A stretch of 43,030 bases of DNA, from positions 1 through 43,030 of IMG/VR virus record IMGVR_UViG_3300042505_001447; one strand, 5' to 3'. Shown here one piece after another: positions 4,855-37,242 of this stretch. Every line of letters starts with the position of its first letter. The stretch's first letter is position 1. The notes beneath the pieces are model-generated. The model saw only the letters and a list, made by a program, of their open reading frames with translations, did no database searches and was not told the origin of the DNA. A program made the translations under genes and the position numbers. Source of the stretch: a virus.

Positions 4855-5589
4855 ATGATTGACGAACAACAACAACCGACCCCTGACGCACCCCAGGCGA
4901 CTCCCCCTAATCCGCCAGCCAATAGCAGTCAGGATCCAAACAGCGAGACCGCCTATGCTACTTTGCAAAAGGAGCGGGAGGCCCGCAAGGAACTAGAGAA
5001 GAAAGCCAAGCAGCTTGAAACCCAACTGCAAGCCTTCAGCGGCATCGACCCTGGCAAGTACAAAGAAGCCATGGAGATCGCCGCTAAGCAGGCTGAGTGG
5101 GAACAACAACAGGCTGAACTACGGGCCCAGTTTGAGGCAGATGCCCAGGCCAAGTATGAGCCAGTGCTAGAGCAACAACGCCAGCAACTGGCAGCCGCCC
5201 AGCAGTCCTTGCTGGACTTTCAGCGAGATACGGCCCTGGAGCAGGCGTTCTATGCCGCCGAAGGATTTCCGGGTGAATTTGAGCCTGCAGCATTAGCGCT
5301 GCGGGGCCGAGTGCGGGTGTCGGCCAATGGGCTGGAGGTGTTAGAGCCGGACGGCAAGACACCCGCCTATGTGGCCGACAAGGGCCAGAGCAGGCCCAAG
5401 ACAGTCGCCGAGTTGATCGACGAACTGAAGGGCACCACATCCTGGTTTGCCCGCCATTTCAAAGGTTCTGACCGGCCAGGCTTTGGTGTACTGGGTAGCC
5501 CGGGCCAGGGCCTACCCGCCGAGGCGACTGGTAAGGATGTATGGGCTGCGGTGACAGCGCAACGCCAAAAACAATTTGGCGGCAGGTAG
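4855..5589 (+). CDS. Capsid scaffolding protein
   Basis: Scaffold proteins template prohead assembly and leave before DNA packaging. Three features support the call. It lies directly upstream of the major capsid gene. It has a Pro/Gln/Ala-rich disordered N-terminus followed by a long charged coiled coil (about residues 40-125, rich in Glu, Lys and Gln). Its C-terminal part is basic and ends KQFGGR, the expected coat-binding end. The length of 244 aa is typical. There is no protease motif, so cleavage would need another enzyme. Confidence 0.8.
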   Translation: MIDEQQQPTPDAPQATPPNPPANSSQDPNSETAYATLQKEREARKELEKKAKQLETQLQAFSGIDPGKYKEAMEIAAKQAEWEQQQAELRAQFEADAQAKYEPVLEQQRQQLAAAQQSLLDFQRDTALEQAFYAAEGFPGEFEPAALALRGRVRVSANGLEVLEPDGKTPAYVADKGQSRPKTVAELIDELKGTTSWFARHFKGSDRPGFGVLGSPGQGLPAEATGKDVWAAVTAQRQKQFGGR

Positions 5590-11406: not shown

Positions 11407-12737
11407 GACGTTGCTCCACTGCCTGACACATAAAGGGTTGCCGCCGTCGAGTTGCCGTAGATGTCAACGGCATAGTTGATCAGAAACTGGCCAGCAAAGT
11501 TAGCCGTCACTACTGTATTAGGATTGCTAGTACTGTTGCGCCGAATGGCACTGGATGAGGCCACAACCCAGCTAGCGCTAGTGGTGCCGGTGGCCACCCA
11601 GACTACTTCCCTAGCGCCCTGAGCATCGCTCAAAACAGTTGTCCGTTGGACGTAGAGCGAATTTGCGGCTAAGGGCGTGATGCTGTTTAGGGGCGATGCG
11701 GTGCCGATGCCCTGCACTCCGCCAGTACCGCCCCCAGCGATAGAGACTGTCACATTGCCGCTCAGCGTGCCATTGCTGGCCACATGGGCAACCGCCAGGG
11801 TCCGGTCATTGCCGTTATCGGTGCTACTGGTGACGGTGTAATAAGCGTACTGACTGGGGTCTGACTCGCTGACTAGCATCAGGCCAGTGCCAGGAGTAAT
11901 CAGGCCAAGCAGGCTAGCGATGGCTTTGCTGTTGCGGTCCGTCTCGTGAATAAATACCTGGGTAGCGCTGGCAGACGCTGCATTATTCAGCCGCACCTGG
12001 CCCGCCGCTGGCCCGCTAGTGGTGGTGCTATTGAAGCTGTACTTAAAGCCAAAGCCAGAGGTCGCAGACGATCCAGCCACCCCCCAGGTCAGCGTCACCC
12101 CGCCCGCCAGGGTGCCATTGCTAGCCACATGGGTCACTGCTAGGGTGCGGTCTGTGCCGTTGTCTGTGGAGGAGGTGACAGTGTAATAGGCAAAGGCCAA
12201 TGGATCCGACTCGTCTAGGATCTGGATCGGGCTACCATTGGCGATGGTGCCAAGCAGGCTAGCGATAGCCGCCCCATTGCGGTCCGTCTCGCTGACATAA
12301 AGCTGGGTGGCACTGACTGGGCTGGCATTGTTAAGCCGTAGCAGGCCAGCCCCAGGACCGCTACTGGTGCTAGTGCTGAAGGTATAGCGGATGCCAAAGG
12401 CCCCGGCCCCCGCGTCGCCCCGGGGGATGGTAAAGTCTAGCACCGCCGCTGATGTGGTGCCGCTGTTGGTGACTGTGGCATTGCTGCCAGCGTTGCCAGT
12501 CGTGATCGCCCCAATGCTCACCGTTGCCGCCTGGCCGTCGGCGGCACTGCCCGACATTAGCGCCCCTGCAGTAGTGCCCGTAGTGCGGTACAGCTTACCT
12601 GCATTGGGTGCCGTCAAGCATTGCACCAGAATACCTGCCTCAGTTGGCACATAGCTAGACGGATCGCCGGTGAAAGTCACCACTTTCGAGCTATGGAGCT
12701 GGGCCCCAGTCAGGATATTATGTTCAACCTCTGGCAT
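11391..12737 (-). CDS. Tail fibre-like protein with internal duplication
   Basis: A 448-aa Ser/Thr/Gly-rich, beta-type protein. A unit of about 105 residues occurs twice in tandem, near residues 113-218 and 228-333. Each runs from FGxxYxF through ETDRNxxAIASLLG and YYTVTSSTDNG to THVASNGTL or AHVASNGTL. The N-terminus (MPEVEHNILTGAQLHS) is short and would anchor to the tail. A collagen-like patch FTIPRGDAGAGAFG precedes the first unit. This modular makeup is usual for phage fibres. The duplication is also visible as two near-identical DNA stretches. Confidence 0.75.
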   Translation of the reverse strand: MPEVEHNILTGAQLHSSKVVTFTGDPSSYVPTEAGILVQCLTAPNAGKLYRTTGTTAGALMSGSAADGQAATVSIGAITTGNAGSNATVTNSGTTSAAVLDFTIPRGDAGAGAFGIRYTFSTSTSSGPGAGLLRLNNASPVSATQLYVSETDRNGAAIASLLGTIANGSPIQILDESDPLAFAYYTVTSSTDNGTDRTLAVTHVASNGTLAGGVTLTWGVAGSSATSGFGFKYSFNSTTTSGPAAGQVRLNNAASASATQVFIHETDRNSKAIASLLGLITPGTGLMLVSESDPSQYAYYTVTSSTDNGNDRTLAVAHVASNGTLSGNVTVSIAGGGTGGVQGIGTASPLNSITPLAANSLYVQRTTVLSDAQGAREVVWVATGTTSASWVVASSSAIRRNSTSNPNTVVTANFAGQFLINYAVDIYGNSTAATLYVSGSGATSWYAV

Positions 12738-23597: not shown

Positions 23598-23672
23598 GAC
23601 GGATCCAGAGCGCTGGATCTAGGGTGCCCTGGGGGTATGCTATACTGGAAACTAGGCGATTTAGACAGCCCC

Positions 23673-24044
23673 ATGAAAATTGAGAATCCAAGACTAATCG
23701 ACAATGAAGGACATGCGGAGCTAAGTCTGCTAATAGATGGAGTCGAGTCTCGTCTGACTACTGAGGCTAAGCCTACCTTGGTGCGTCACGGCATTGTTCC
23801 TGTTGAGTCGAGAGAGTCCAACAAATACAGGGCTAAGCTGCCTGATGGACGTGAAGTATCTAGATGCTCAGACGATCCGAAGTTGTTTCGGCTTTGGGTT
23901 AAGTTTTTGCTTGATGAGAGGTTTGGGCGTGAATTTCAACCCGGTCCCATAGATCCGACCGAAGCTATGCAGTTAGACATCCAGCTCCAGGGAGCTGCAC
24001 TAACTGAGTCCAAACCTTTTTTAGAATATCTAGGGTTCATTTAG
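23673..24044 (+). CDS. Uncharacterised rightward moron
   Basis: A 123-aa protein starting MKIENPRLIDNEGHAELS. The frame is open from 23637, but that ATG falls inside a likely -10 element (TGCTATACT, with TATACT at 23641-23646), so the ATG at 23673 is preferred. The gene has A/T-rich codons and points against the leftward operon. TAGGGTGCCC lies at 23620-23629 in the -35 zone. It ends with a 15-base tail-to-tail overlap with the minor head gene. No family is recognised. A lysogenic-conversion or anti-host role is possible but unproven. Confidence 0.65.
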   Translation: MKIENPRLIDNEGHAELSLLIDGVESRLTTEAKPTLVRHGIVPVESRESNKYRAKLPDGREVSRCSDDPKLFRLWVKFLLDERFGREFQPGPIDPTEAMQLDIQLQGAALTESKPFLEYLGFI

Positions 24045-26729
24045 ATCTACTTGCAAATCAAGAAAAGCTTGAATATAAGTAAGCTTCGCTTTCAATGATC
24101 CGAATAGTTTTAGCTTGTTCTGCGATATACCTAATTGATCCGCTGTTTCCGCCAATTCCTTTATGCTCCAGGTTTTTTGCATCTTTTGAATATCTGAAGC
24201 ATCTATTTTCTTCAACCAGTCTTGTTTAATCTGCTTTACTGTCATCGGCGCAGCTGGCATTGGCTTGGATGATTGCTTGTAGTTTTGCTGCGCATCTTGC
24301 CACTTCTGCAAAGGAACGTAATTAAATTTTATGCCCTGCATAATTGCGACTGCTTCGTTTTCGTAATCACCTAAAAACATTCTTCCTTCGCTAAAGGCGT
24401 CACGACTTTGGAGGTACATGCCAACAATTCTATGGTGAGGAACCTGTTGAACAGTCGTTTCCTGGCCTGCAACCGCTTCAACCCTGCTAAATAACGATGT
24501 AGACTCTGCTGCACCACGGGGCATAGTTACATCAACATCGCCTTCATTGAGGCTGTTCCGCTGCATCGTCCTTAAGCTTTCAGTTCGCACTAACTGAAAT
24601 GTGCCGTCAGAACGATTGTTGTTAGGCATTTCGATCCGCTGCAGCTGCTCATAGTTCCAGGCATGAAAAGCCGCAAGTGTCACATCAAAAACGTTGCCGC
24701 CAACTGAGTCCCTAAAGTTGTCATAGTGAGCTTTTGCCTGATCGGATCCGTTTCTCCACCAATACTGATCCAGTCCAACTCCCCTAGCCTGAACATAGTG
24801 CCATTTAACGGCTTGAGGCAACGGCCCCCAAGAACTACTTGCCTGCTGATCGGCCCATAAAGGAATTACGGCGTTGTAATCGCCTCCCTGAGCTCCGATG
24901 TAATCGACTAGATTTTCTAGGATGCTACCTTTGCCGCGCAGGTTATCAAACAATTTATCATTTTCATCATAAAGCTGATTGTTTGCAAGCCGCATTTGCA
25001 TGGGAAGCCTGTCCGTGATTCCGGCATTACGAATGCCTACGCTGTGTCGACAAAACTCGTCAATATACCCATCCCTCCAATCATCTGATTGCAAAGTTCG
25101 AGTTATTTCGACGACCCGTTTCATTTCCCTAATCCGACCTTGAATAGTGTCGTGCAGATCTTTGGGCAATACTTTTAATAGCTTGGACTCTTTTTTGGCT
25201 AGTGCTTCAATCTGCTTAATTACGGTTGAATATTTGATGCCTGAAAAGATCTCCCCAGCGCCTCTTGCCGGGTCTCTCAACGACCATAGTTCCGTTGGGT
25301 AGTCATTCCATTCTTGCCCCGACTTCAATCCGCCCTGTGCTCTATAACGCAACGATCCGCCATTGTCTATGCGCCATGGCGTGCCATCGGCATCAACTAG
25401 AATGTTGTCTCTAGTCATGCCTAGCACATCCCAGTTAGCTAGCAAGGCATCAGCCGCAAAATTAGCTTGGAGCTTTTTAATAGCGGCTTTGCGTGTAGCT
25501 GGATCCAGCTCATTTAACTGTTTACCTTCAATGAACCTAGCCAGCTTGACAGGTCCATTTTGGGTCTCAAATAGCCTGGCTTCAGGCACTTTTACCCCTA
25601 ACGCTTGATAAGCTTCATCGGCTGCAAACTCTTCTCTGATGTGATCAGGCTGACTGCCTCTTTTGCGGACAAATAAATCTCCGCTAGCTGGATCCCGTAC
25701 CAGTTCAGCCCCTGTACTGCCACCTAACTGTTTAACAAATTCAAGGCTATCCAGATCGTCCTTTGCAGGGAATCCACTTTTAACCACCGGCGCAGGATTG
25801 GCCGCCACCGGCGCAACCGGCACCGCCTGCCCTGGCACCCAGCTAGGCTTAGCCGGGGTGACGCCTGCCTTTTTCTCCCAGTAGGTGGGCCCATTGTCTG
25901 GCTGCAAGCCCTGGCGCTCCAGGTCGTCTAAGCCTTGCTTGCTGTAGTCTTCGTAAAATGCGGTGTCAATGTCGCTCAGCGACGCCGTTGGTAGGTAGGT
26001 GCAACGACAACGGGGATGGGCCGGGATCGCTGGCGCTTCGGTAGTTTTCCAGGCTTTGGTGTTGCGGGCATAGCATAGGCTACAGGTGCCCTCAGCCGGG
26101 GTAGCAATCCATTGCACATAGGCCACGCCTGCCTGCTCGTAGCGGCTTCTGGCCGCCCCATTGTAGGCGCTCATGGTTTCTGTCCTAGCAATGGTTTCCG
26201 CATTGCTCTTGAAGCTTACCCCCAGCGTCTTTAGCTGGCCTTCGATCTTGCGGGTGCCCCAGCCTTGGATTAAACCTTGCTCTACTACAGCGCTGATCTG
26301 GCTGGCTTGCTGATTGGAGTAGTTGACCAAGCGCTCTCTGAACCGCTCCGCTTGGTTACGGACTGCGCCAATCGGGATGGTGGTAAATGGGGCCTGGAGG
26401 CCAATGTATTTCAAGCTGTCGCCTGCCATTTGCTGGCCCAAGTCAACCGCCTGCTGAATTACGTCATAGCCTAGCTGCTCAATGGCTTGCTCATTGCCAG
26501 GGTTAAGGAATTTGAGCGCCTCGCCCATCTCCGCTGCAATCGCCCCCTGGCGCACCAGCGTAGAGATGCTGCCGGCCTGCTGCAGCCGTGGCATGGCATC
26601 CCGCAGCTTAGCCACCATAGCCCGGTAGCTAACGTCATAGGCTGCTGCAATGCGCTTCAGCACATCCTGACTGGCCTTGTCTAGTTCGACGTCGTAGCGG
26701 TCGGCAATGTTGACTAGCTGGCGGCTCAC
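24030..26729 (-). CDS. Minor head protein (SPP1 gp7/Mu F-like) fused to kinase-like and ART-like domains
   Basis: An 899-aa fusion. Residues 130-250 are the head-morphogenesis domain: RFRERLVNYSNQQASQI, ETIARTETMSAYNGAAR and a CxxC/HPRCRC zinc-like end. Residues 320-480 look like a HipA/PI3K-like small kinase domain: LFVRKRGSQ, then NWDVLGMTRDNILVDADG and WRIDNGGSLRYRAQGG. Residues 550-850 hold an order typical of ADP-ribosyltransferases: Arg715 in FQLVRTESL, a STS motif at 743-745, and Glu790-x-Glu792 in GDYENEAV. From about residue 320 (near base 25770) codon use turns A/T-rich, so the C-terminal 580 residues look added. Gp7-like proteins are injected, so the fusion could deliver enzymes to the host (inference). 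Confidence 0.75.
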   Translation of the reverse strand: MSRQLVNIADRYDVELDKASQDVLKRIAAAYDVSYRAMVAKLRDAMPRLQQAGSISTLVRQGAIAAEMGEALKFLNPGNEQAIEQLGYDVIQQAVDLGQQMAGDSLKYIGLQAPFTTIPIGAVRNQAERFRERLVNYSNQQASQISAVVEQGLIQGWGTRKIEGQLKTLGVSFKSNAETIARTETMSAYNGAARSRYEQAGVAYVQWIATPAEGTCSLCYARNTKAWKTTEAPAIPAHPRCRCTYLPTASLSDIDTAFYEDYSKQGLDDLERQGLQPDNGPTYWEKKAGVTPAKPSWVPGQAVPVAPVAANPAPVVKSGFPAKDDLDSLEFVKQLGGSTGAELVRDPASGDLFVRKRGSQPDHIREEFAADEAYQALGVKVPEARLFETQNGPVKLARFIEGKQLNELDPATRKAAIKKLQANFAADALLANWDVLGMTRDNILVDADGTPWRIDNGGSLRYRAQGGLKSGQEWNDYPTELWSLRDPARGAGEIFSGIKYSTVIKQIEALAKKESKLLKVLPKDLHDTIQGRIREMKRVVEITRTLQSDDWRDGYIDEFCRHSVGIRNAGITDRLPMQMRLANNQLYDENDKLFDNLRGKGSILENLVDYIGAQGGDYNAVIPLWADQQASSSWGPLPQAVKWHYVQARGVGLDQYWWRNGSDQAKAHYDNFRDSVGGNVFDVTLAAFHAWNYEQLQRIEMPNNNRSDGTFQLVRTESLRTMQRNSLNEGDVDVTMPRGAAESTSLFSRVEAVAGQETTVQQVPHHRIVGMYLQSRDAFSEGRMFLGDYENEAVAIMQGIKFNYVPLQKWQDAQQNYKQSSKPMPAAPMTVKQIKQDWLKKIDASDIQKMQKTWSIKELAETADQLGISQNKLKLFGSLKAKLTYIQAFLDLQVDLNEP

Positions 26730-28814: not shown

Positions 28815-28901
28815 GGCTAGCGGATCCGATGTACGTCCCCACTAGCCTAGCAGAAACCCGAACAAAAGCCTATGGCCGAAAGGAAAAAGCCTAAAGCGGG
28901 G

Positions 28902-28943
28902 TTGACAGTTCGATACAGGGGGGGTATATTGAGGGTATCGAAC
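28902..28943 (+). promoter_or_regulatory. Strong promoter with inverted-repeat operator
   Basis: TTGACA (28902-28907), 17 bases, TATATT (28925-28930). The half-site GTTCGATAC (28908-28916) and its exact inverse GTATCGAAC (28935-28943) flank the -10 element, so a bound dimer would block polymerase. A run of seven G lies between. The same 49 bases occur exactly at the minus-strand promoter upstream of the 30597-30905 gene. Confidence 0.85.
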
Positions 28944-28963
28944 CACTTACCGAGGACCGACCC

Positions 28964-29184: not shown

Positions 29185-29206
29185 ACCCCCGGCCTAGCTG
29201 GGGGTT
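29185..29206 (+). terminator. Intrinsic terminator, rightward
   Basis: The stem ACCCCCGGC...GCTGGGGGT is followed by TTTT on the plus strand. It ends the 28964 transcript. The csf1 stop codon (29194-29196) is inside the loop region, so the two transcripts converge here. Confidence 0.7.
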
Positions 29207-29868
29207 TTGCTTTGGGCCACATAGCTGAGCAGGTCCAGAAACCGGCTGCCCCGCACTGGCGCGATCTGGTCCTCCAGCGGCTGGTACTGGCTGATCGCCC
29301 GCATTAGCCTGTCGCTGTGGTACAGGCCGCTATCAATCTCCGTCTTACTGAACTCCAACGCCATTAGCCCCTCATAGCCAGCCAGGAGGCCCGTGAAGCG
29401 TTCCCGGCCTATCCACAGGGTATCTAGCTCGAACTGCACCGGGAAATGGTCTCTGCTATGGCCATCCTGGGCCCAGGGCAGCACATGTTTCTGGCCGGAC
29501 TCAGCGATGACGATGGTAAACGGTGGCTCCGGTGGCTCCAGCAGCCAGCCACGGATCTGAGCCCGGGTGGGTAAGTCCGAGACTACCGGGAAAGTGTCTT
29601 TGCCGATGGTCTTGGCCTCACCGATCACAGGCGACAGCAGCACATCGCCTTGGTACAACCGGCTCAAAGATCGGCCCCATAGCTTACTCCACTTGTCCTT
29701 GCCCTGATTCCAGTACCACAGCAGCTTTTCGTTGCCGTCAATGGCACCATAGCAGCGCCCGCATAGCTGGTCGGAGCCTGGGCAACGGGCCATGCTATGG
29801 CCGGTAAAGCTGTCTTTGAGCGCTAGGGGAAAGCTGGCGGGCTTGCCGCATAGGTAGCACTCAGCCAT
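29194..29868 (-). CDS. csf1: Csf1-like type IV CRISPR subunit (Cas8-like)
   Basis: Type IV effector subunit carrying a zinc finger. The 224-aa protein starts MAECYLCGKPASF and has CYLC (Cys4, Cys7) and LCGRC (Cys36, Cys39) around DSFTGHSMARCPGSDQ. This CxxC-x28-CxxC pattern with FT(G/N) and SD.LC motifs is what I know of Csf1. The remaining 180 residues are less conserved. The frame is open to 29937, but the ATG at 29868 overlaps the cysH stop (29861) by 8 bases, giving translational coupling. Context supports the call: cysH, csf2, csf3 and cas6 lie upstream on the same strand. Identity is from motif memory and synteny, not from a search. Confidence 0.7.
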   Translation of the reverse strand: MAECYLCGKPASFPLALKDSFTGHSMARCPGSDQLCGRCYGAIDGNEKLLWYWNQGKDKWSKLWGRSLSRLYQGDVLLSPVIGEAKTIGKDTFPVVSDLPTRAQIRGWLLEPPEPPFTIVIAESGQKHVLPWAQDGHSRDHFPVQFELDTLWIGRERFTGLLAGYEGLMALEFSKTEIDSGLYHSDRLMRAISQYQPLEDQIAPVRGSRFLDLLSYVAQSKTPS

Positions 29869-30604
29869 GGTCCGCAACCTCCGGAAAATGTTTACAAAAT
29901 TCAGCCCAAAATTCTGGATGATGCCGCCGCAGGTCACTCAGTCGCCCCCAGTTTACGCCAGTAGTCCCGATGGGTGGCCCATTGCGCACCGTCAGCCGGT
30001 CCCGGTCGTACATGGCAGGGTAGGGCAGTTGGTGAGAGTCGATATAGCACCAAATATCCTGGGTACTCCAGAAGCCGACCGGCGAACATACCCACAGGCC
30101 ATCCTTGCGCTGGTATAGCTCGCCCTTGCCCTTCAGGTATAGGCTACGGCCCCGCGACTCCTTCCGTAGCCCCCAGGCATAGCCTCGCACGCCATGGGCC
30201 TCCTGGTAGTCATCCAGCGGGCCATACATTAGCGCTGCATTAATGCGCTTGTCCAAGCCGGTCGCCATGGTGCCATCCAGGGGAATGCCATAGTCCTGGT
30301 ACAGCTTCAGTAGGCTGCGGGGTGGGCATAGCTCGATGATGTTCCAGCCCTGGCCTTGCAGGTGGTGAAGCAGCTCGATGCAGTCCGGCCATTCTGCCAA
30401 CGGCCCTTGGTTGACCCAGACAAAAGGGCAGTCCGGCCATACCTGGCGGATTAGGTGAGCCATTACCAAGCTATCCTTGCCGCCACTGACTGAGCCATAG
30501 GCGTAGCGATCTGTGGCCTCCAGCCAGCGGCCAATAACAGAAAGCGCCCGGTCAACCTTGCGGGTCAACCAGGGCGCTCGTGAGCCGGTGCCAGTGTTAA
30601 GCAA
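29861..30604 (-). CDS. CysH-like PP-loop ATPase of type IV locus
   Basis: A PAPS-reductase-family (adenine nucleotide alpha-hydrolase) protein, 247 aa. The PP-loop is SVSGGKDSLVMAHL (SGGKDS at residues 40-45). PFVWVNQGPLAEWPD, RGYAWGLRKESRGRSLYLKG and PVGFWSTQDIWCYI follow, matching the fold. The C-terminal ECGIHxG-type redox cysteine of true reductases is not seen, so it is probably not an assimilatory sulfate enzyme. CysH-like genes are the known companion of type IV-B CRISPR loci. There is no ATG: TTG at 30604 is the likely start and overlaps the upstream stop at 30597. TTG at 30568 is an alternative. Confidence 0.8.
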   Translation of the reverse strand: MLNTGTGSRAPWLTRKVDRALSVIGRWLEATDRYAYGSVSGGKDSLVMAHLIRQVWPDCPFVWVNQGPLAEWPDCIELLHHLQGQGWNIIELCPPRSLLKLYQDYGIPLDGTMATGLDKRINAALMYGPLDDYQEAHGVRGYAWGLRKESRGRSLYLKGKGELYQRKDGLWVCSPVGFWSTQDIWCYIDSHQLPYPAMYDRDRLTVRNGPPIGTTGVNWGRLSDLRRHHPEFWAEFCKHFPEVADHG

Positions 30605-30905
30605 GCTGCATCCGCTCGCTCATTGCATCCGCAAACCATTCGCGGATCTTGTCTTCGGCATTGTCATAAAAGTGAGTGTTGGAGTCGTCATCCCACTCTT
30701 CCTCGTTGAGGTGGGGAACGGTAAGAATGAGTCCGGGGCTATCGTACAGGTTCCCAACAGAACCCTTGTCCATAGTGCGGTAGGCGCCATCCTCAAACAG
30801 CTCAACAACGTAAGCACCGCCGCCCCAGGATGCTGCCGTGGAAGAATCAACGGTGGCCTCGAAGTCGCTGGACATGAAGTTATCGAAAGCTTGTTGAATA
30901 GTCAT
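30597..30905 (-). CDS. Acidic small protein, first gene of the cysH-csf1 operon
   Basis: A 102-aa, strongly acidic protein (NEEEWDDDSNTHFYDNAEDK near the C-terminus) with a central beta part (GGGAYVVELFEDGAYRTMDKG). It is the first gene after the perfect operator promoter and is coupled to cysH by an 8-base overlap. No family is recognised. Its acidic surface could mimic nucleic acid or regulate the complex; that is speculation. The ATG is at 30905 after a GAGGAC ribosome site. Confidence 0.6.
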   Translation of the reverse strand: MTIQQAFDNFMSSDFEATVDSSTAASWGGGAYVVELFEDGAYRTMDKGSVGNLYDSPGLILTVPHLNEEEWDDDSNTHFYDNAEDKIREWFADAMSERMQLA

Positions 30906-30924
30906 CAGTCAGTCCTCATAAGTG

Positions 30925-30966
30925 GTTCGATACCCTCAATATACCCCCCCTGTATCGAACTGTCAA
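30925..30966 (-). promoter_or_regulatory. Promoter/operator of the cysH-csf1 operon
   Basis: The same 49-base promoter/operator as at 28902, on the minus strand. TTGACA is at 30961-30966, 17 bases follow, and TATATT is at 30938-30943. Half-sites lie at 30952-30960 and 30925-30933. The -35 overlaps the cas6 stop codon at 30963, so the csf1 half of the locus has its own repressible promoter inside the longer operon. Confidence 0.85.
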
Positions 30967-31571
30967 CACTTTCCGACAAAATAGCCACAGCCTAGGCGCT
31001 GTCTACCTCCTAGCCCTTGCCGCTGGAGGGTCAGCGATGCCTCCGGCGATAGGTCGGCAAAGCTTACCCCGTAGCCCACCACGGTAGCATCCTTGATCCG
31101 CAGGGTTTTGCGCTCCCCCAGTACCGGCATAGCCTGTACCCCCAACCGTTCCAGCGCCTTGCCTAGGGCTATCCCGAACTCAAAAGGTGACACCTGGTCC
31201 TGGTACTGGGCTTTGATGGTCACCAGCCTTGCCTCTAGGCTAGGACATGGCTGCAGGGATGCACCCGTCAAGGTGCCTAGCTGCACCAGCGCCTTACCCA
31301 CCCGCAATACTTGATTGTCCAGGCTACCGAATAGCTCCAGATTGGCCAGCTCAGTCCGCACCCCTAGCCAGCTTTCGCTACCCAGTTGCACCCACCCCTG
31401 GCGGTCCGGGATACCGTTGATCGTCTTCAGCGACCAGGCCAATTCTTTCAACCCCGGTAGGCGTTCTACCAAGGCGCTATAGAGCCGGTAGCCATGGTCG
31501 GCGGGTATTCTATCGCCCTGCACCGGCCAGGCTAGCTGTATCCAGGCGGGCGGTGTGGACTGACATGGCAC
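30963..31571 (-). CDS. cas6: Cas6-type CRISPR RNA endoribonuclease
   Basis: Processes CRISPR repeat hairpins and often stays on the crRNA 3' end. The roughly 202-aa protein matches the Cas6 (cmx6/MYXAN-type) layout. WIQLAWPVQGDRIPADHGYRLYSAL opens the first RRM-like fold, with candidate catalytic His26 in PADHGY. WLGVRTELANLELFG is the middle strand, then RKTLRIKDATVVGYGVSFADL. The C-terminal Gly-rich loop is GLGGRQRLGCGYF (187-198). The frame is open to 31721, but the extra N-terminus overlaps csf3. A GTG at 31571 fits the domain start, though no clear ribosome site is seen. Cas6 is not expected in type IV-B. Confidence 0.75.
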   Translation of the reverse strand: MPCQSTPPAWIQLAWPVQGDRIPADHGYRLYSALVERLPGLKELAWSLKTINGIPDRQGWVQLGSESWLGVRTELANLELFGSLDNQVLRVGKALVQLGTLTGASLQPCPSLEARLVTIKAQYQDQVSPFEFGIALGKALERLGVQAMPVLGERKTLRIKDATVVGYGVSFADLSPEASLTLQRQGLGGRQRLGCGYFVGKC

Positions 31572-32238
31572 AGCGGGCTTTGTTGGCTGGCAGCCAGGCA
31601 GGGGGTCGCCAGCCCCAGTCGCGGATGGCAATATCAATCGGTCGGTCCCGGGGCAGGTGGACGGCGGGGATGGGTCGCATAAGTTTACCGTTTGGCCCCC
31701 ATAGATGCCAGTCGTGGTCATGGTCCTCTACCTCCCAGTTGGTAACTTGCCCGTAGCCATGGGCGCGTTTTTTGCCCAGCCCAGTACAGCCCTGCAATAA
31801 TGCCGCGATGCCGTCCCGGTCGCCCTGACAGTACCAAGTGATCGTCGGTGCCAGCCGCACAAACAAGGGCAGGTCGTAGGCTTTCTCCGCCCCCTGGCTG
31901 GTATCCCACTTTGCCTTGCGCTTCCCCCATGCCGGTGGTGGGCTATCGATCCCAGGTGCCCAGCGCTTCCTGAATTTGCTAACCGACTCATTGCGGTAGG
32001 TATAGCACGGACTAGAGGTTTGCCAGTACCAATCCTCGCCCAGCCAACCCTTAGCCAGTGGCATGTGCTCATCCACTACCGGGCGGCTAGCTTCTACGTC
32101 CTGGGCGCTAGGGTTGGGGGCCGCCATCCCCCGGGCATCGAGGATCAACCACTCTAGCAGGCTAGCTAGATCGGGACTCCAGTCATCAAAGACGGCAATG
32201 CCCGACGATAGCCGGGCGGTGACTCGCAGGTTAGCCAT
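31510..32238 (-). CDS. csf3: Csf3 (Cas5-like) type IV CRISPR subunit
   Basis: Cas5-like RAMP protein that caps the 5' end of the guide in class 1 complexes. The length is 242 aa. The Gly-rich RAMP loop is GLGKKRAHGYGQVTNW near residues 153-168. An N-terminal RRM-like strand (ANLRVTARLSSGIAVFDDW) precedes a long helix. KFRKRW and a Trp-rich region follow. The ATG at 32238 overlaps the csf2 stop (32231) by 8 bases, and cas6 overlaps its 3' end. The identity rests on the RAMP motif, size and order next to csf2. Confidence 0.75.
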   Translation of the reverse strand: MANLRVTARLSSGIAVFDDWSPDLASLLEWLILDARGMAAPNPSAQDVEASRPVVDEHMPLAKGWLGEDWYWQTSSPCYTYRNESVSKFRKRWAPGIDSPPPAWGKRKAKWDTSQGAEKAYDLPLFVRLAPTITWYCQGDRDGIAALLQGCTGLGKKRAHGYGQVTNWEVEDHDHDWHLWGPNGKLMRPIPAVHLPRDRPIDIAIRDWGWRPPAWLPANKARCAMSVHTARLDTASLAGAGR

Positions 32239-33394
32239 TGAGCAACCCCTTCAACTCGCTGGACTCCTGGGCCTGGGCTAGAAATTCCTGGTAGACGCTC
32301 AGATAGTCCTGATAGGCATGGTGGGCCTCCTGGGCGGTGCTGGATAGCGTCTGGTTGCCGGTGGCTAGCGATAGGAAGTGGCCGCGTTCCTGGCCACGCT
32401 GGTACCAAAATTCTAGTGATACCAGCCCATTGCCGCGGTTAGCCTTGCCGCCAATGTACGGCGACTTGGCAAACTGCAGTAGGGTATCGACTACCCAGCC
32501 AGTCTCGATGGCGGTGGTGTGCAGATCCCAGCGGCTATAGAGCCTGGAGCCAGCCATGATCAGCCGGTCGCTGGCGATCATCTGGTCAGACTTTTTGGCC
32601 TTATCCTCACCCTTAGCCTTTGGCTTGGCCTCGCCCAGCAGGCTCATCTGGCCTTCCTCTGCACCGCCTGGGAGAAACTTTTGCAACGCTGGATCGTGGG
32701 TACTATCGCGGCGGGTGGTTTGGTCTACCGTCAGGTACTGGGTCCAGTTGCGTAACATCTTGCGCAGGTAGGGCAGGTGGTCTGCCTTGGCCTGACGGTA
32801 GGCTTCAACCTGCTCAGTGGTGGGTGGCTCAAATGGGTTAGCCGTCAGCCTGTCTTTGCACTCCAGTAGTTCCTGCAGCCTGGGCAGTACATCTGGCGGC
32901 AATAGGCCAGGAAATTCCCGGTAGATCAGCTCCGCCGACTCGTAGCACAGCAGATACGCACTACCCACCGCCAAACGGCCATGGACCATCTGGGCATTCT
33001 TCACCCCGAACACCCCGGCAGGCTTGGCCGTACCCAGCACCGACAGCCAGGGCATCAACTGCCGGATGCGGGTGTCCAGGTCCATATCATTGGCGGTGCT
33101 GCCATCAATGCGGCCGCCAGCGAATAGGGTATGGTGAACATCTGGCGATACCTGCAGGGCCAGCGCATCCAGCACACTAGCCATGCCACGGCGGCGTAGG
33201 ATGCCATTGCGCAGCGCATTGCCGGAGTAGACAAAGCAGGAGACCGGGTTCCCCTCCAGGTCTAGCAGCTTGGCCGTCTTGAGGTTACTGACATTGCCTG
33301 CTACCTCGCCAATGTGGCTAAGCGGGCTTTGCAGGGTCACCTGGCAGTGCAGGGTGATCCGCTGCCGGTTGTGAATGTCGTAGGCTTCAAACAT
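32231..33394 (-). CDS. csf2: Csf2 (Cas7-like) type IV CRISPR backbone
   Basis: Cas7-type RAMP that would form the guide-bound helical backbone of the complex. The length is 387 aa. The N-terminus shows ITLHCQVTLQSPLSHIGE, then VYSGNALRNGILRRRGM, the Gly/Arg-rich segment known from Csf2/Cas7. FAGGRIDGSTANDMD follows. A charged insert (AKPKAKGEDKAKKSD) lies before DRLIMAGSRLYSRWDL. The C-terminal YIGGKANRGNGLVSLEFWY is the second Gly-rich loop. It is translationally coupled to the cas11-like gene upstream and csf3 downstream. This is the most secure member of the locus. Confidence 0.82.
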   Translation of the reverse strand: MFEAYDIHNRQRITLHCQVTLQSPLSHIGEVAGNVSNLKTAKLLDLEGNPVSCFVYSGNALRNGILRRRGMASVLDALALQVSPDVHHTLFAGGRIDGSTANDMDLDTRIRQLMPWLSVLGTAKPAGVFGVKNAQMVHGRLAVGSAYLLCYESAELIYREFPGLLPPDVLPRLQELLECKDRLTANPFEPPTTEQVEAYRQAKADHLPYLRKMLRNWTQYLTVDQTTRRDSTHDPALQKFLPGGAEEGQMSLLGEAKPKAKGEDKAKKSDQMIASDRLIMAGSRLYSRWDLHTTAIETGWVVDTLLQFAKSPYIGGKANRGNGLVSLEFWYQRGQERGHFLSLATGNQTLSSTAQEAHHAYQDYLSVYQEFLAQAQESSELKGLLNG

Positions 33395-33902
33395 CGGTGG
33401 TTACCTCTACGTCGATAGCATCGTCTGGCGCATCCTGGCCTAGCGCCCGGTCTTCCTCAAAGCGCAAGCGGCACAGCACCTGAATGATAGCCGCCCGGGT
33501 CCGGCATAGCTCCAGCACATCCCACTCGGTGAAGCCGTCCTTGGCGATCTGCTGCAGCAAGTCCCGCCAGCCGACAAAGACTAGCGCCTCATCCTGGGTC
33601 AGCTCCTGGATCTCGCTCAGGTCAGCGTTTACCCGTAGGATGCGCTGCTCTGGCTGCACGATGCCGGTTAGGACCGCTGGCCGTAAGTGGCTGATCAAGG
33701 CATTAACCAGGCGTTGTAGGTAGTCCTCCAGCGTGGTGGATACCTCAGCGCTGTTCTGGATAGTGGACTCCAGAAAGGTCCAGGTCTTGGTGCCCATCGC
33801 TGGACTTTTGGCCCGGTCGCGGCACTTAAACACCCAATAGCTAAGGGCTGCAGCTAGCCCATAGGCGCTATCAGAGGCATTGGAGAAACCAAAATAGTTC
33901 AT
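33387..33902 (-). CDS. Cas11-like small subunit candidate
   Basis: A 171-aa all-helical protein (MNYFGFSNASDSAYGLAAAL...), first in the leftward csf2-csf3-cas6 operon. It overlaps csf2 by 8 bases. Type IV-B loci place the helical cas11 directly before csf2, so position and fold class agree. By sequence alone I cannot confirm the family. The frame is open to 33950 (GTG), but the promoter-like elements at 33928-33955 would lie inside it, so the ATG at 33902 is preferred. The acidic C-terminus is EVTTDV. Confidence 0.5.
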   Translation of the reverse strand: MNYFGFSNASDSAYGLAAALSYWVFKCRDRAKSPAMGTKTWTFLESTIQNSAEVSTTLEDYLQRLVNALISHLRPAVLTGIVQPEQRILRVNADLSEIQELTQDEALVFVGWRDLLQQIAKDGFTEWDVLELCRTRAAIIQVLCRLRFEEDRALGQDAPDDAIDVEVTTDV

Positions 33903-33927
33903 AGGTCTTGACAAAACTGCCACCATG

Positions 33928-33955
33928 GTATCACAGCCCTGGCCAGCCACGACAA
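33928..33955 (-). promoter_or_regulatory. Candidate promoter of the csf2 operon
   Basis: On the minus strand TTGTCG (33950-33955), a 16-base spacer, and TGATAC (33928-33933), then about 25 bases to the ATG at 33902. It matches consensus moderately and does not carry the GTTCGATAC operator. The two halves of the type IV locus therefore seem to be controlled differently. Confidence 0.4.
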
Positions 33956-33979
33956 AGCCCGCCAGGTGGCCAGCGGGCT
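33953..33979 (-). terminator. Weak intrinsic terminator upstream of the CRISPR operon
   Basis: The palindrome AGCCCGC/GCGGGCT (33956-33962 and 33973-33979) is followed leftward by only TTT, so it is weak. It lies between the stop of the 34003 gene and the csf2 operon start and would separate the two. Confidence 0.45.
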
Positions 33980-34002: not shown

Positions 34003-34635
34003 TTAGGCTAGGGATAACCAAGGCGCAAACCCGTCCTGTAGTCCGACCAAAGGGCCTCGACAGTCAGCATTAAATTTAGGCTTAAAAGTCTGCCAATGAA
34101 GAGAGAAAGGCTGTTCTTTTAAGATCCCTACAGCGTCCACTTTCCCGTCTATAGTGCGCATCCAATATTTTGCACAACTCGACCATTCTCGCTTGGAGTA
34201 GTCGCCATAAATATACAGCATTCGTCGCTGTACCCAATCAAGCTTTGTAGAGCCATTGACTTTTTCGGCTTGTAAAGATACAAAGCGTTGAAACGTAAAC
34301 GCTTCATACGGTTGAGTCCACTCGCCGGTATCTGGATCTAGCTCGCCAGACTCAAGCTCTGGTGCTTCGTCATCCCTATCAAGCAACTGAGTCCACGGGA
34401 CTACATAGCCTTCCTCGGTTTCAGGGTGCAACTTTGGCAACGGACCCGGCCATGAAAAGCCGTCTAGGTTATCAATATCTTCGGCCCACTTACACAAATG
34501 CTCGTAATCGGCATAAGAAATACATTGCACCTCTCCCTTAAACGCCGGGTTGCGGCTCATCCATTCAATAGCTTCGGAGTTTGCAACTAAAGCTTGCGAC
34601 TCCATTTTTTCAAACCAATCCCAGTTGTCAGTCAT
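34003..34635 (-). CDS. Uncharacterised acidic protein
   Basis: A 210-aa protein starting MTDNWDWFEKMESQALV. It is rich in Trp, Asp and Glu (EAPELESGELDPDTGEWTQP) with a later KRLD/KLDWVQRRMLYIYGDY segment. The frame is open to 34659, but the ATG at 34635 has a GAGGAAGG ribosome site. A/T-rich codons contrast with the CRISPR genes beside it, suggesting separate acquisition. It lies between a terminator cassette and the csf2 operon. No family is recognised. Confidence 0.6.
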   Translation of the reverse strand: MTDNWDWFEKMESQALVANSEAIEWMSRNPAFKGEVQCISYADYEHLCKWAEDIDNLDGFSWPGPLPKLHPETEEGYVVPWTQLLDRDDEAPELESGELDPDTGEWTQPYEAFTFQRFVSLQAEKVNGSTKLDWVQRRMLYIYGDYSKREWSSCAKYWMRTIDGKVDAVGILKEQPFSLHWQTFKPKFNADCRGPLVGLQDGFAPWLSLA

Positions 34636-34670
34636 GCTGGCCTTCCTCAATGATCGCAATCCTAGCTAGA

Positions 34671-34749
34671 GAAAACCCCGACCGGGGCCGGGGCTATGTA
34701 AACAAATTCAAGCTTCAGTGTAGCATAGCCAGCAGCTTTTAGTTGGGTT
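34671..34749. repeat. Duplicated terminator/leader cassette, copy A
   Basis: Nearly matches 35001-35085. On the minus strand it runs from AACCCAACTAAAAGC through GCTATGCTACA, AAGCTTGAATTTGTTTACA and a GC-rich hairpin (AGCCCCGG...CGGGG) to TTTTC. It follows the 34760 gene and precedes the 34635 start. It therefore holds the terminator of one gene and the leader of the next. Six bases are missing relative to copy B after GGGCT. Confidence 0.8.
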
Positions 34750-34759
34750 CTAGCTGGCG

Positions 34760-34972
34760 CTAGCAAGGCGCAGCAAGTTCGGGATAGTGACGAGCTAAAT
34801 AGGTGGCCGAATCTAGCTCTTCTTCGGGCTCTTCGCCAAATAGTTCCCAAGCAGAATCAGGCTCTTCAGCTTGCTGGCTTGCACAATCGGGATCATTAGA
34901 TCCAAGAACTGCTGCATCTTCCGCAAAAAGTTTTGCGTAGAAATCTGAATGAAAACCCGCTGTAGTAGACAT
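34760..34972 (-). CDS. Small acidic protein between cassette copies
   Basis: A 70-aa protein MSTTAGFHSDFYAKLFAEDAA..., strongly acidic (EPDSAWELFGEEPEEELDSATYL). The frame is open to 35047, but the ATG at 34972 follows GGAGGATAAAAGCT, a good ribosome site. It is flanked on both sides by copies of the same terminator cassette, so it may have been inserted or duplicated as a unit. DNA-mimic or anti-defence proteins are often small and acidic, but no function can be claimed. Confidence 0.6.
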   Translation of the reverse strand: MSTTAGFHSDFYAKLFAEDAAVLGSNDPDCASQQAEEPDSAWELFGEEPEEELDSATYLARHYPELAAPC

Positions 34973-35000
34973 AGCTTTTATCCTCCAAGTCGTGGTTAGG

Positions 35001-35085
35001 GAAAACCCCGACCAGGGCCGGGGCTGTACCAGTGTAAACAAATTCAAGCTTTATTGTAGCATAGCTAGCGGCTTTTAGTTGGGTT
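35001..35085. repeat. Duplicated terminator/leader cassette, copy B
   Basis: Second copy of the cassette at 34671. It begins within the 3' end of the CoiA-like gene, since the final Gln-Pro-Asn codons and stop form the AACCCAACTAA end. It includes a hairpin terminator (AGCCCCGG...GGTCGGGG then TTTTC on the minus strand). It separates the CoiA-like gene from the 34972 start. Confidence 0.8.
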
Positions 35086-36742
35086 GTGAAACTGAAGATC
35101 TCGCTAAACTTGATAAAGGGCGCCCAGATGCCCCTTTTTCGGGACTGATAACGGCAATGCGAGACTCAGTAGGTTCAATGCAAAGTCTGCCAGGGTTACG
35201 ACGATCCCATCCTAAACGCCCCCACGCCCACACCCGCCATCCTTCAGAAATATGGGCTCCAGCTATATCAGCAAGAGAGCCATAAATTTTAAGCTTCACA
35301 ACAATCTCGTCCGATTCTAAATATTGGGAATGCCGCAATAGCAATTCTTTCGGAAACAGCTCTGCAAATAATTCATTTCGGGAAAGGTGTCCCGCATTAG
35401 GACTAACGCATAAAAATTGACTAACCTCCAAGTTAGCAACAAACAAAGCGTCTTGCCCGGGTTTTTTGGGGAAGTACAATGGAGTCATTGAAATTACCCC
35501 TTTCACCCCCGGAGTCCCAATCTTGTTATCTCTAGCATTAGTGCGACCTTCGACTAATCTAGGGCCAACCAAATTAACAGACTCCGTCTGTGTAGCAGGC
35601 TCTAACGCATCAACCTCAATCAGACTGACTGACTCCGTAGGCACCATCTCGCCAGACGGAAACCCGCACAGCTTAATAAGATCAGGGCACTCTACGCTAG
35701 AACGCTCTGACACTTTGACGCGATAGCGCTCCAGCACCTCTTTTGCATGACGCTGATCCGAATTTTGGCAAGACTTTTTGTCAGCAGGCTTGTCTTGAGC
35801 ATTTTCAGATGTAAAACCCTTTAAGCTGCTTTGAGTTTGGTGCAAATGCTTAAATCCGATCTCGCCGAAATATTCTTGTGGAGTAATTAAAGTTAAAACC
35901 CCGTCGTTGCTTCCAGGTTCTCCCGAGATTTCGTACAGCAAAGATGGACGACCATGCTCCATCAAATACTTTAATGGCGGCCTAAACTCTCCAGTAGCCT
36001 TGCTTTTTTTAAACGTCCAAAGACATATATCCGCCACCTGCCTAAGATCTTGATCCCTGATCAACCAGTTATTAAAACCGCCGATCTTGGATTGCTGCAC
36101 TTCTACGGCAAACGAAAATGACACCGGCCCATAAGGGCTATCACCTTCAATCTTAAAAAAAAGATCTGGTCTACGGTTTACATCCTTAGTCGCCTTGAGA
36201 TTAAGTGTGGAAGAAACATCACAGCCCGGATACTGCTGCTCCAGATCCGTGATGCATTTAGATCTAATCCGCCTGATAACAGCCTCGTGCTCGGTATCTG
36301 CCCTGCACTTGCCGCCATGCCCAGGGAGATGACGGTAAGTCGGACGCCGCAAAGAGCTGGAGTTCGACTGAGTCGAAGACACTGCAAACCTAGTGTCTAT
36401 CCTAGGATCAAACTTGCCATCGCTAATCAATCTTGTCCGGCTTAAAATCTCTGCGGCCTCTGCGCACCTATCGCCAAATCCCTGAGCGTCAACTTGGCTT
36501 AACAGACTTTGATCGCGGAACAAAGCATATCCGCGAGAATCTCCCATTTGCTCAAATAAATCAGCCGTGCAGTACGGACAGCAGCTCAAGCCACCCTTGA
36601 ACCATTGACGGTCTAAGGACTGACGCTCGATCACTTTCGACAAGTCTGACGGAAACTTTTCTAGCTCGCCAATCCTGGCAGGCTTTATGGTGCATTCGTC
36701 AAATCGAGTTTCAGGGCGAATTACAAAGCTTGTAGTAACCAT
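35075..36742 (-). CDS. CoiA-like nuclease-domain protein
   Basis: A 555-aa protein. Residues 50-58 hold a Cys cluster (SCCPYC). Residues 140-220 match the CoiA-like PD-(D/E)xK nuclease core: the helix EHEAVIRRIRSK (Glu151/153), then RRPDLFF (Asp193) and FAVEVQQSKI (Glu214-x-Gln216), with the VEVQxS signature of CoiA. The C-terminal 300 residues are unknown. A/T-rich codons and no GGATCC suggest transfer. It is the first gene downstream of the hairpin array. Known type IV complexes lack a nuclease, so a nearby one is notable, but there is no direct link. Recombination or anti-phage roles are alternatives. Confidence 0.65.
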   Translation of the reverse strand: MVTTSFVIRPETRFDECTIKPARIGELEKFPSDLSKVIERQSLDRQWFKGGLSCCPYCTADLFEQMGDSRGYALFRDQSLLSQVDAQGFGDRCAEAAEILSRTRLISDGKFDPRIDTRFAVSSTQSNSSSLRRPTYRHLPGHGGKCRADTEHEAVIRRIRSKCITDLEQQYPGCDVSSTLNLKATKDVNRRPDLFFKIEGDSPYGPVSFSFAVEVQQSKIGGFNNWLIRDQDLRQVADICLWTFKKSKATGEFRPPLKYLMEHGRPSLLYEISGEPGSNDGVLTLITPQEYFGEIGFKHLHQTQSSLKGFTSENAQDKPADKKSCQNSDQRHAKEVLERYRVKVSERSSVECPDLIKLCGFPSGEMVPTESVSLIEVDALEPATQTESVNLVGPRLVEGRTNARDNKIGTPGVKGVISMTPLYFPKKPGQDALFVANLEVSQFLCVSPNAGHLSRNELFAELFPKELLLRHSQYLESDEIVVKLKIYGSLADIAGAHISEGWRVWAWGRLGWDRRNPGRLCIEPTESRIAVISPEKGASGRPLSSLARSSVSQPN

Positions 36743-36822: not shown

Positions 36823-36847
36823 GCCATAGGTTTACATTCGGGTTTCT

Positions 36848-37237
36848 CCCCCACCCTGTGGGGCACCTCCACCAAGCCGACTCACCCCCACCCTGTGGGG
36901 CACCTCCACCAAGCCGACTCACCCCCACCCCGTGGGGCACCTCCACCAAGCCGACTCACCCCCACCCCGTGGGGCCTCTGAAAAGCTACCGATCCACCCC
37001 CACCATCATGGGGCCATTAACCCTGTAGGAGTCACCCCCACCTAGTGGGGCACAGGAGCTAAACCGATCAACTCCCACCGTAGTGGGCCTCCACACCATC
37101 TCGAGACACTCCCACCGCAGTGGGGCCTTTATCCCGAGTGACACACCCCCACCTGGTGGGGCACCTTTCCCCAAGTCGAGACACCCCCACCGCAGTGGGC
37201 TCAAGAGTCGCAAGACACACCCCCACAACCGTGGGGC
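36848..37237. repeat. Array of 11 hairpin repeats with 36-38 bp period
   Basis: Eleven units, starting at 36848, 36885, 36922, 36959, 36997, 37035, 37072, 37109, 37146, 37184 and 37220. Each holds an inverted repeat CCCCAC(N3-6)GTGGGG, often preceded by GA(C/T)(A/T)CA. The linkers (about 18-21 bases) are identical in the first three units (ACCTCCACCAAGCCGACTCA) and differ in the others. Stems are kept while loops vary from 3 to 6 bases. The period is not a multiple of three, so it is not coding. It fills the roughly 500 bases between the CoiA-like gene and the 37243 gene. It is not a standard CRISPR array, as spacers would be too short, but leftward transcription would give a string of RNA hairpins. 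Confidence 0.9.
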
Positions 37238-37242
37238 CTGGC

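Follow-up and report, generated by a model that had tools for sequence, protein, structure and literature searches.

On a viral DNA of 43,030 nucleotides (IMG/VR record IMGVR_UViG_3300042505_001447, hereafter the window), a long gene lies between a hairpin array and a locus of type IV CRISPR-Cas genes, raising the question of whether it encodes a nuclease and, if so, whether that nuclease serves the type IV system as an effector or travels with the phage as an independent gene.

The gene between the hairpin array and the type IV-like block

The stretch from the array to cas11, referred to below as the slot, and its surroundings contain the following features:

~36845..37240, minus strand: hairpin array of 37-nt units (11 counted), left border of the slot
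35075..36742, minus strand: CoiA-like ORF of 555 aa, with a nuclease-like domain at about residues 127-250 and RPD193 ... E214-V-Q216
34997..35085, minus strand: 89-nt repeat, copy 1 (possible promoter plus hairpin), preceding the ATG used for ORF 95
34760..35047, minus strand: ORF 95 (95 aa from the first TTG), a slot-mate whose identical protein occurs in the related contig L021
34667..34749, minus strand: repeat, copy 2, preceding ORF 218
34667..35089, minus strand: apparently shuffled 423-nt piece comprising ORF 95 and the repeats flanking it; L021 positions 5094-5516 match it at 99.05%
34003..34659, minus strand: ORF 218 (218 aa), a slot-mate for which no family was found
33937..33979, minus strand: conserved hairpin that bounds the slot on the right and is found unchanged in 10 viral contigs
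29220..33933, minus strand: type IV-like block csf1-cysH-o102-cas6-csf3-csf2-cas11, missing as a block from five related contigs

The ORF, already proposed in a preliminary description of this DNA, is real: it starts with ATG and remains open for 555 codons. The residues singled out at that time were also located correctly, with D193 inside R-R-P-D-L, E214-V-Q216 downstream, and cysteines 54, 55, and 58 forming C54-C55-x2-C58. Likewise, the proposed foreign codon use was borne out, with a low GC3 of 0.45 for the CoiA-like gene versus 0.68-0.75 for csf1, csf2, csf3, cas6, cysH, cas11, and dnaB; values were 0.60 and 0.62 in two further backbone genes, and 0.39 and 0.48 in the two slot-mates. The gene start is ~100 nt from the last hairpin of the array. 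The gene is not in contact with the type IV genes: two further ORFs, of 95 and 218 aa, come before cas11. Contig L001 (13.3 kb) has a base-for-base copy of the gene and, along its entire length, 99.85% identity with the window; the window and L001 were therefore counted as one phage, and a single version of the gene sequence is known.

Similarity of the encoded protein to CoiA

CoiA is described, in an excerpt of PMC1189080, as a PD-EXQ variant of the PD-(D/E)XK fold, and RPD193 ... E214-V-Q216 agrees with the active site so defined. Loosely written as PD..[DE]x[KQ], the motif is meaningless here, since this pattern is present in 9,820 of 20,000 shuffles of the protein. The stricter pattern RPDh..hEhQ, with h standing for a hydrophobic residue, turns up in 9 of the 20,000, and the RPD...E-x-Q motif in its hydrophobic context exceeds chance.

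A home-made CoiA profile was built from 15 CoiA-type regions (12 annotated as CoiA family protein, three as hypothetical), and scores against it are to be read with the caveat that these regions had been collected by searching with a typed CoiA-type bait. Scored with HMMER among 2,087 sequences (the ORF, the reversed ORF, 2,000 shuffles, and 85 window frames with 100 aa or more, a set that includes the ORF), the ORF ranked first (10.0 bits, E 0.061), narrowly ahead of the best shuffle (8.4 bits). In the alignment, residues 127-250 corresponded to profile positions 22-130, placing D193 and E214-V-Q216 on the D and E-x-Q of the family. In hhalign, the ORF scored 31.1 against the same profile (P 7.7e-4), and residues 126-275 alone gave P 9.2e-5; controls reached at most 17.5 for all 18 other window proteins and at most 24.4 for all 200 shuffles. 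The first rank in both comparisons, with a collinear match spanning 80 (hhalign) to 109 (HMMER) positions, therefore supports a remote CoiA-like domain.

The order RR(P/A)D ... E-x-Q-x-S-x-I, which is seen in the CoiA family (PF06054 / COG4469, a predicted PD-(D/E)XK nuclease), recurs in register in the ORF, and a downstream W, upstream His/Cys residues, and an E/H-rich helix are likewise aligned in the profiles. Most of the 15 CoiA members have an N-terminal Cys pair followed by an H-F-x-H block; in the ORF, C55-P-Y-C58 is present and the aligned His block (138-146) lies ~80 residues further on. Unlike the family, the ORF has ~125 residues before the aligned part and 300 after it, appears as phage cargo without a competence context, and escapes detection by PF06054.

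With the full-length ORF, searches of the curated Pfam, NCBIfam, and PADLOC libraries yielded no family at E up to 1, and the nuclease-like domain alone gave no Pfam family at E up to 10. The curated cut-off of CoiA_nuc (PF06054) was not reached by the ORF, and membership of that family was rejected despite the remote profile likeness; PF06054 had no match in the viral record at E up to 10 (control: 5 of 14 genomes, three over the cut-off) and none in three plasmid records. The best PHROGs match, at E 0.43, was noise, the PDB sequence search gave no match at E up to 1, and tblastn of the ORF or the domain against phages and plasmids returned nothing or chance-level matches (E 0.8 to 6). In sequence collections, homologues came from the same phage only (L001/L044), and in a genome contig collection neither the ORF nor csf2 found a match; both scans need near-exact peptide words and so miss distant relatives.

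Single-sequence AlphaFold models were weak (pLDDT 37 for the full length, 63 for residues 131-272). In both, the domain is arranged as helix, strands, helix, with D193 and E214 in or beside strands. Fold searches with the two models found no PD-(D/E)XK match among the 50 matches listed per search, and the domain model weakly matched other alpha/beta folds (best Z 6.5, a level that the tool calls common). The preliminary assignment as a CoiA-like nuclease is thus retained for its motif and remote profile similarity, and not as a curated family match; a PD-(D/E)xK match by curated HMM, whose absence had been named beforehand as grounds for dropping the assignment, was not found for the ORF. On balance, a CoiA-like PD-EXQ nuclease domain is moderately supported, and the 555-aa protein appears to be the product of a real, divergent CoiA-like gene, probably a nuclease.

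Exchangeable units in related phages

Relatives were gathered by using csf2, cas11, the border hairpin, and a flanking protein as queries. Contigs L003, L004, L005, and L021 are largely collinear with the window and match it to the left and right of the slot; from the array to cas11, none of the four has a DNA match to the window beyond the border sequence, with the exception of L021, in which the repeats and the ORF 95 piece match. Seven distinct slots, of 1.9-4.4 kb, are complete from the array end to the border hairpin:

Window: 2,875 nt, CoiA-like, 95, and 218 aa
L003: 2,913 nt, 242, 209, and 391 aa
L004: 2,956 nt, 543 and 376 aa
L005: 4,412 nt, 368, 545, 415, and 103 aa
L021: 3,899 nt, 427, 205, 363, and 95 aa plus a further ORF
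L026: 2,915 nt, 242 and 624 aa
L033: 1,867 nt, 543 aa

The CoiA-like gene is present in one of the seven (the window, equal to L001), and the other six hold unrelated genes. Slot GC is 0.48-0.52 versus 0.54-0.58 for whole sequences. Some gene types recur, including a 242-aa gene common to L003 and L026 (96% over 832 nt), a 376/363-aa type common to L004 and L021 (68%), and a 543/624-aa type in L004, L033, and L026. As judged from these alignments, the stretch between the array and cas11 is a swap slot, the contents of which vary among close phages. The families recognized in the slots are HerA, DNA methylases, ParB-like proteins, and an antitoxin-like ribbon-helix-helix protein, as well as, more weakly, Bro-N (below the Pfam cut-off) with the PADLOC candidate PDC-S13; the slot-mates in relatives (PDC-S13/Bro-N, HerA, DNA methylases, ParB-like) would be of mobile or defence type. 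The 368-aa protein of L005 found no support as a HerA partner.

Nuclease-like motifs, as recognized by the authors' own patterns and inspection and not by library matches, are found in five of the seven slots (window, L004, L021, L026, and L033). The slot proteins of L004 and L033 (95% identical) and L026 (37%) contain an HNH-like D-H/N/H-K pattern, which arises by chance in 35 to 140 of 5,000 shuffles. They have no Pfam, NCBIfam, PHROG, or PDB match, and in PADLOC hit only PDC-S05/S23 (E 0.014 to 0.048), outside the motif; the invariant D-H, N, H, and K suggest an HNH nuclease. In these three proteins (543, 543, and 624 aa), the N-terminal ~27 and last ~12 residues are far better kept than the middle, and overall identity between those of L004 and L026 is 37%. 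The 205-aa protein of L021 has an ExK pattern (in 36 of 5,000 shuffles), chance-level matches only in the libraries and PDB, and E 0.96 against the CoiA profile.

How slot contents may move is suggested by the repeats. Copy 1 runs into the 3′-terminal part of the CoiA-like gene, the two copies in the window (before ORF 95 and before ORF 218) are 85% identical, and an 18-nt core of the repeat is present in seven viral contigs. The 423-nt piece bounded by them matches L021 at 99.05%, whereas the flanking backbone is 91.5% and 94.7% identical between the two phages, indicating a recent exchange with its edges in the repeats (one case). A consensus scan of the slot revealed no excess of promoters or terminators and did not pick copy 1, and the repeat hairpins, with z-scores of -0.70 and -1.50, were not clearly more stable than shuffles (-2.14 for the border hairpin at 33937-33979); a regulatory (promoter/terminator) reading of the repeats is thus tentative. 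Promoter early stem-loops (PeSL) are elements of the modular shuffling of accessory regions in T4-type phages. Arbiol 2010 and Comeau 2014 are reportedly the primary papers on PeSL cassettes. As in the T4-type arrangement, the accessory genes of the window are split by repeated intergenic modules with a hairpin, and close phages exchange genes with the repeats as edges, here in one case; in contrast to it, a different phage group is involved and the promoter and terminator roles are conjectural. PeSL cassettes of T4-like phages are cited in an excerpt of PMC4503421. A further 60-nt intergenic repeat (95% identical) occurs ahead of small ORFs at 28901-28961 and 30908-30967.

The neighbouring type IV-like block shows a variation of its own. 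The border hairpin is exact in 10 viral contigs, five with the csf side and five without: it stands beside csf genes in L001, L003, L004, and L005 and beside the cas11 start in L021, and it occurs without csf genes in L026, L033, L035, L036, and L039. A csf2 profile found nothing in the latter five (positive control L005 found), three of which are fragments of 5.9 to 23.8 kb; in their overlaps, L033, L035, L036, and L039 differ little, so that the five may represent few phages. In the window, csf1 ends at 29194, inside a far hairpin that overlaps its stop codon. At the csf-less junction, the border hairpin is joined to this second hairpin, with sequence that in the window begins at the csf1 end; L026 has a second copy of the border hairpin there, with two other ORFs in between. 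Since L026 (array at 11601-11825) and L033 keep array and slot without csf, the array and the slot are independent of the csf genes. Next to the slot, the type IV block forms another unit, exchangeable on its own. Several inter-hairpin segments of the array are common to several phages, for instance one ending TTTAGCTCCTGT.

The block contains all components of type IV-B CRISPR-Cas (csf1, cas11, csf2, csf3, and CysH). Unlike type IV-B, it has Cas6 and lies near a hairpin array, with the CoiA-like gene lying outside the block; type IV-B is characterized as having no array in an excerpt of PMC11656645 and no RNA-processing subunits in an excerpt of PMC7937560. This Cas6 (type MYXAN, 30963-31721) sits inside an otherwise IV-B-like operon with CysH, and by tblastn it is also found in L004, L005 (as L034), and L006 and is not detected in L007-L010, L014, L015, L017, L019, and L020. 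In L011 (9502-10428), csf2 residues 1-51 are directly followed by csf1 residues 151-244, a type IV remnant that resembles the outcome of a deletion through the middle of the operon. The mechanically called start of cas11 (33387-33950) overlaps the border hairpin region; the true start is probably downstream, because distant relatives match from residues 16-19 (MNYFGFSN...).

Partnership with type IV or independent passenger

The preliminary description had proposed that the nuclease could be a type IV effector and that co-occurrence of CoiA-like genes with csf2 in other phages would bear on this. Among 14 csf2-bearing contigs (window/L001, L003-L010, L014, L015, L017, L019, and L020, in which L008/L009 and L014/L015 look near-duplicate by their equal identities to the window), the CoiA-like gene occurs in one, the window itself. 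It was found by tblastn in none of 10 whole records and in none of the other loci gathered (best E 0.8). The CoiA profile, run over 2,501 ORFs of 35 viral loci (some overlapping), singled out L001 alone (E 0.074; next 0.96); since L001 itself scores only at this level, an equally divergent relative could be overlooked. Conversely, csf2 was detected in none of 15 CoiA-bearing plasmid or phage records (control: 2 of 14, none over the cut-off) by a model of moderate sensitivity that gives the window's own csf2 E 3e-9. No report of CoiA together with type IV CRISPR, or of type IV CRISPR and csf2 in a cyanophage, was found in the open-licence library searched. The proposed co-occurrence was not seen, and the CoiA-like gene is not a conserved partner of type IV.

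Taken together, the reading judged probable is that a divergent CoiA-like PD-EXQ protein is a swap-slot passenger in a probable cyanophage, likely acting by itself and exchanged by recombination at repeats. A cyanobacterial host is likely because the Cas6 of the window matches seven plasmid records at E up to 1e-5, all labelled as cyanobacterial. The protein would comprise a metal-dependent PD-EXQ nuclease domain (~127-250) between a Cys-containing N-terminal part and a C-terminal part, and most likely would act alone, cutting DNA of a competitor (a host plasmid or another phage) or of the host. The slot contents would be swapped, most likely, by homologous recombination at short shared intergenic repeats. 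The ORF, its motif and remote profile match, the differing slot contents between the same borders, and the absence of the csf block in some relatives are direct observations; nuclease activity, target, recombination mechanism, and host are inferred. The alternative offered by the preliminary description, an independent defence gene, fares better in its first half: independence is the better reading, while defence is suggested by the character of the slot-mates. The gene is thus probably an independent passenger encoding a defence or anti-competitor nuclease.

Recruitment of the protein to Csf-bound targets, which it would then cut, thereby contributing an activity missing from most type IV systems, would fit its position on the same strand near the csf block and array, and the nuclease-like motifs in five of seven slots would allow the function to persist while genes are exchanged. 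However, the counts of one in 14 csf2 contigs and none in 15 CoiA records, the two ORFs intervening before cas11, the unrelated genes in the same slot of close relatives, and the csf-less L026 and L033, which retain slots with nuclease-like genes, leave this effector role unsupported and very unlikely. The broader notion that the array-side site is a dedicated socket for interchangeable nucleases (CoiA-, HNH-, ExK-like, and perhaps HerA-partnered), serving as plug-in effectors of an array-RNA-guided complex, type IV or host-encoded, and kept without csf, is a speculation of similarly low probability.

A chance occurrence of the motif, in an orphan protein with a different fold, is a more serious contender, though still unlikely: it would explain why no curated HMM matches the ORF and why its domain model weakly resembles other alpha/beta folds, but the rarity of RPDh..hEhQ among shuffles and the length of the collinear CoiA match, with D and E-x-Q in register, argue against it. 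A homing-type or mobile nuclease, which would promote its own exchange among phages instead of attacking competitors, is the most doubtful of these ideas. The movement of slot contents and the HNH-like and ExK-like motifs in other slots would agree with it, yet the piece seen to have moved, that of ORF 95, holds no nuclease gene, and to our knowledge no CoiA-type domains act as homing enzymes.

With an independent passenger preferred and a dedicated type IV nuclease disfavoured, the latter gives way to a testable picture: genes of nuclease-like and defence-like character would be exchanged in an accessory slot of the phage, beside a separately exchangeable type IV block. The sharp borders of the slot make it a useful starting point in the search for defence or anti-defence genes carried by phages, and the csf-less relatives that keep the array make array and cas genes testable apart. 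Elsewhere in the window, a second low-GC stretch (23640-25780) has no DNA match in L004 and L005, both of which match on either side of it; by eye, it corresponds to the 3′ part of a head-protein gene, the end of which differs in L005 (637 aa).
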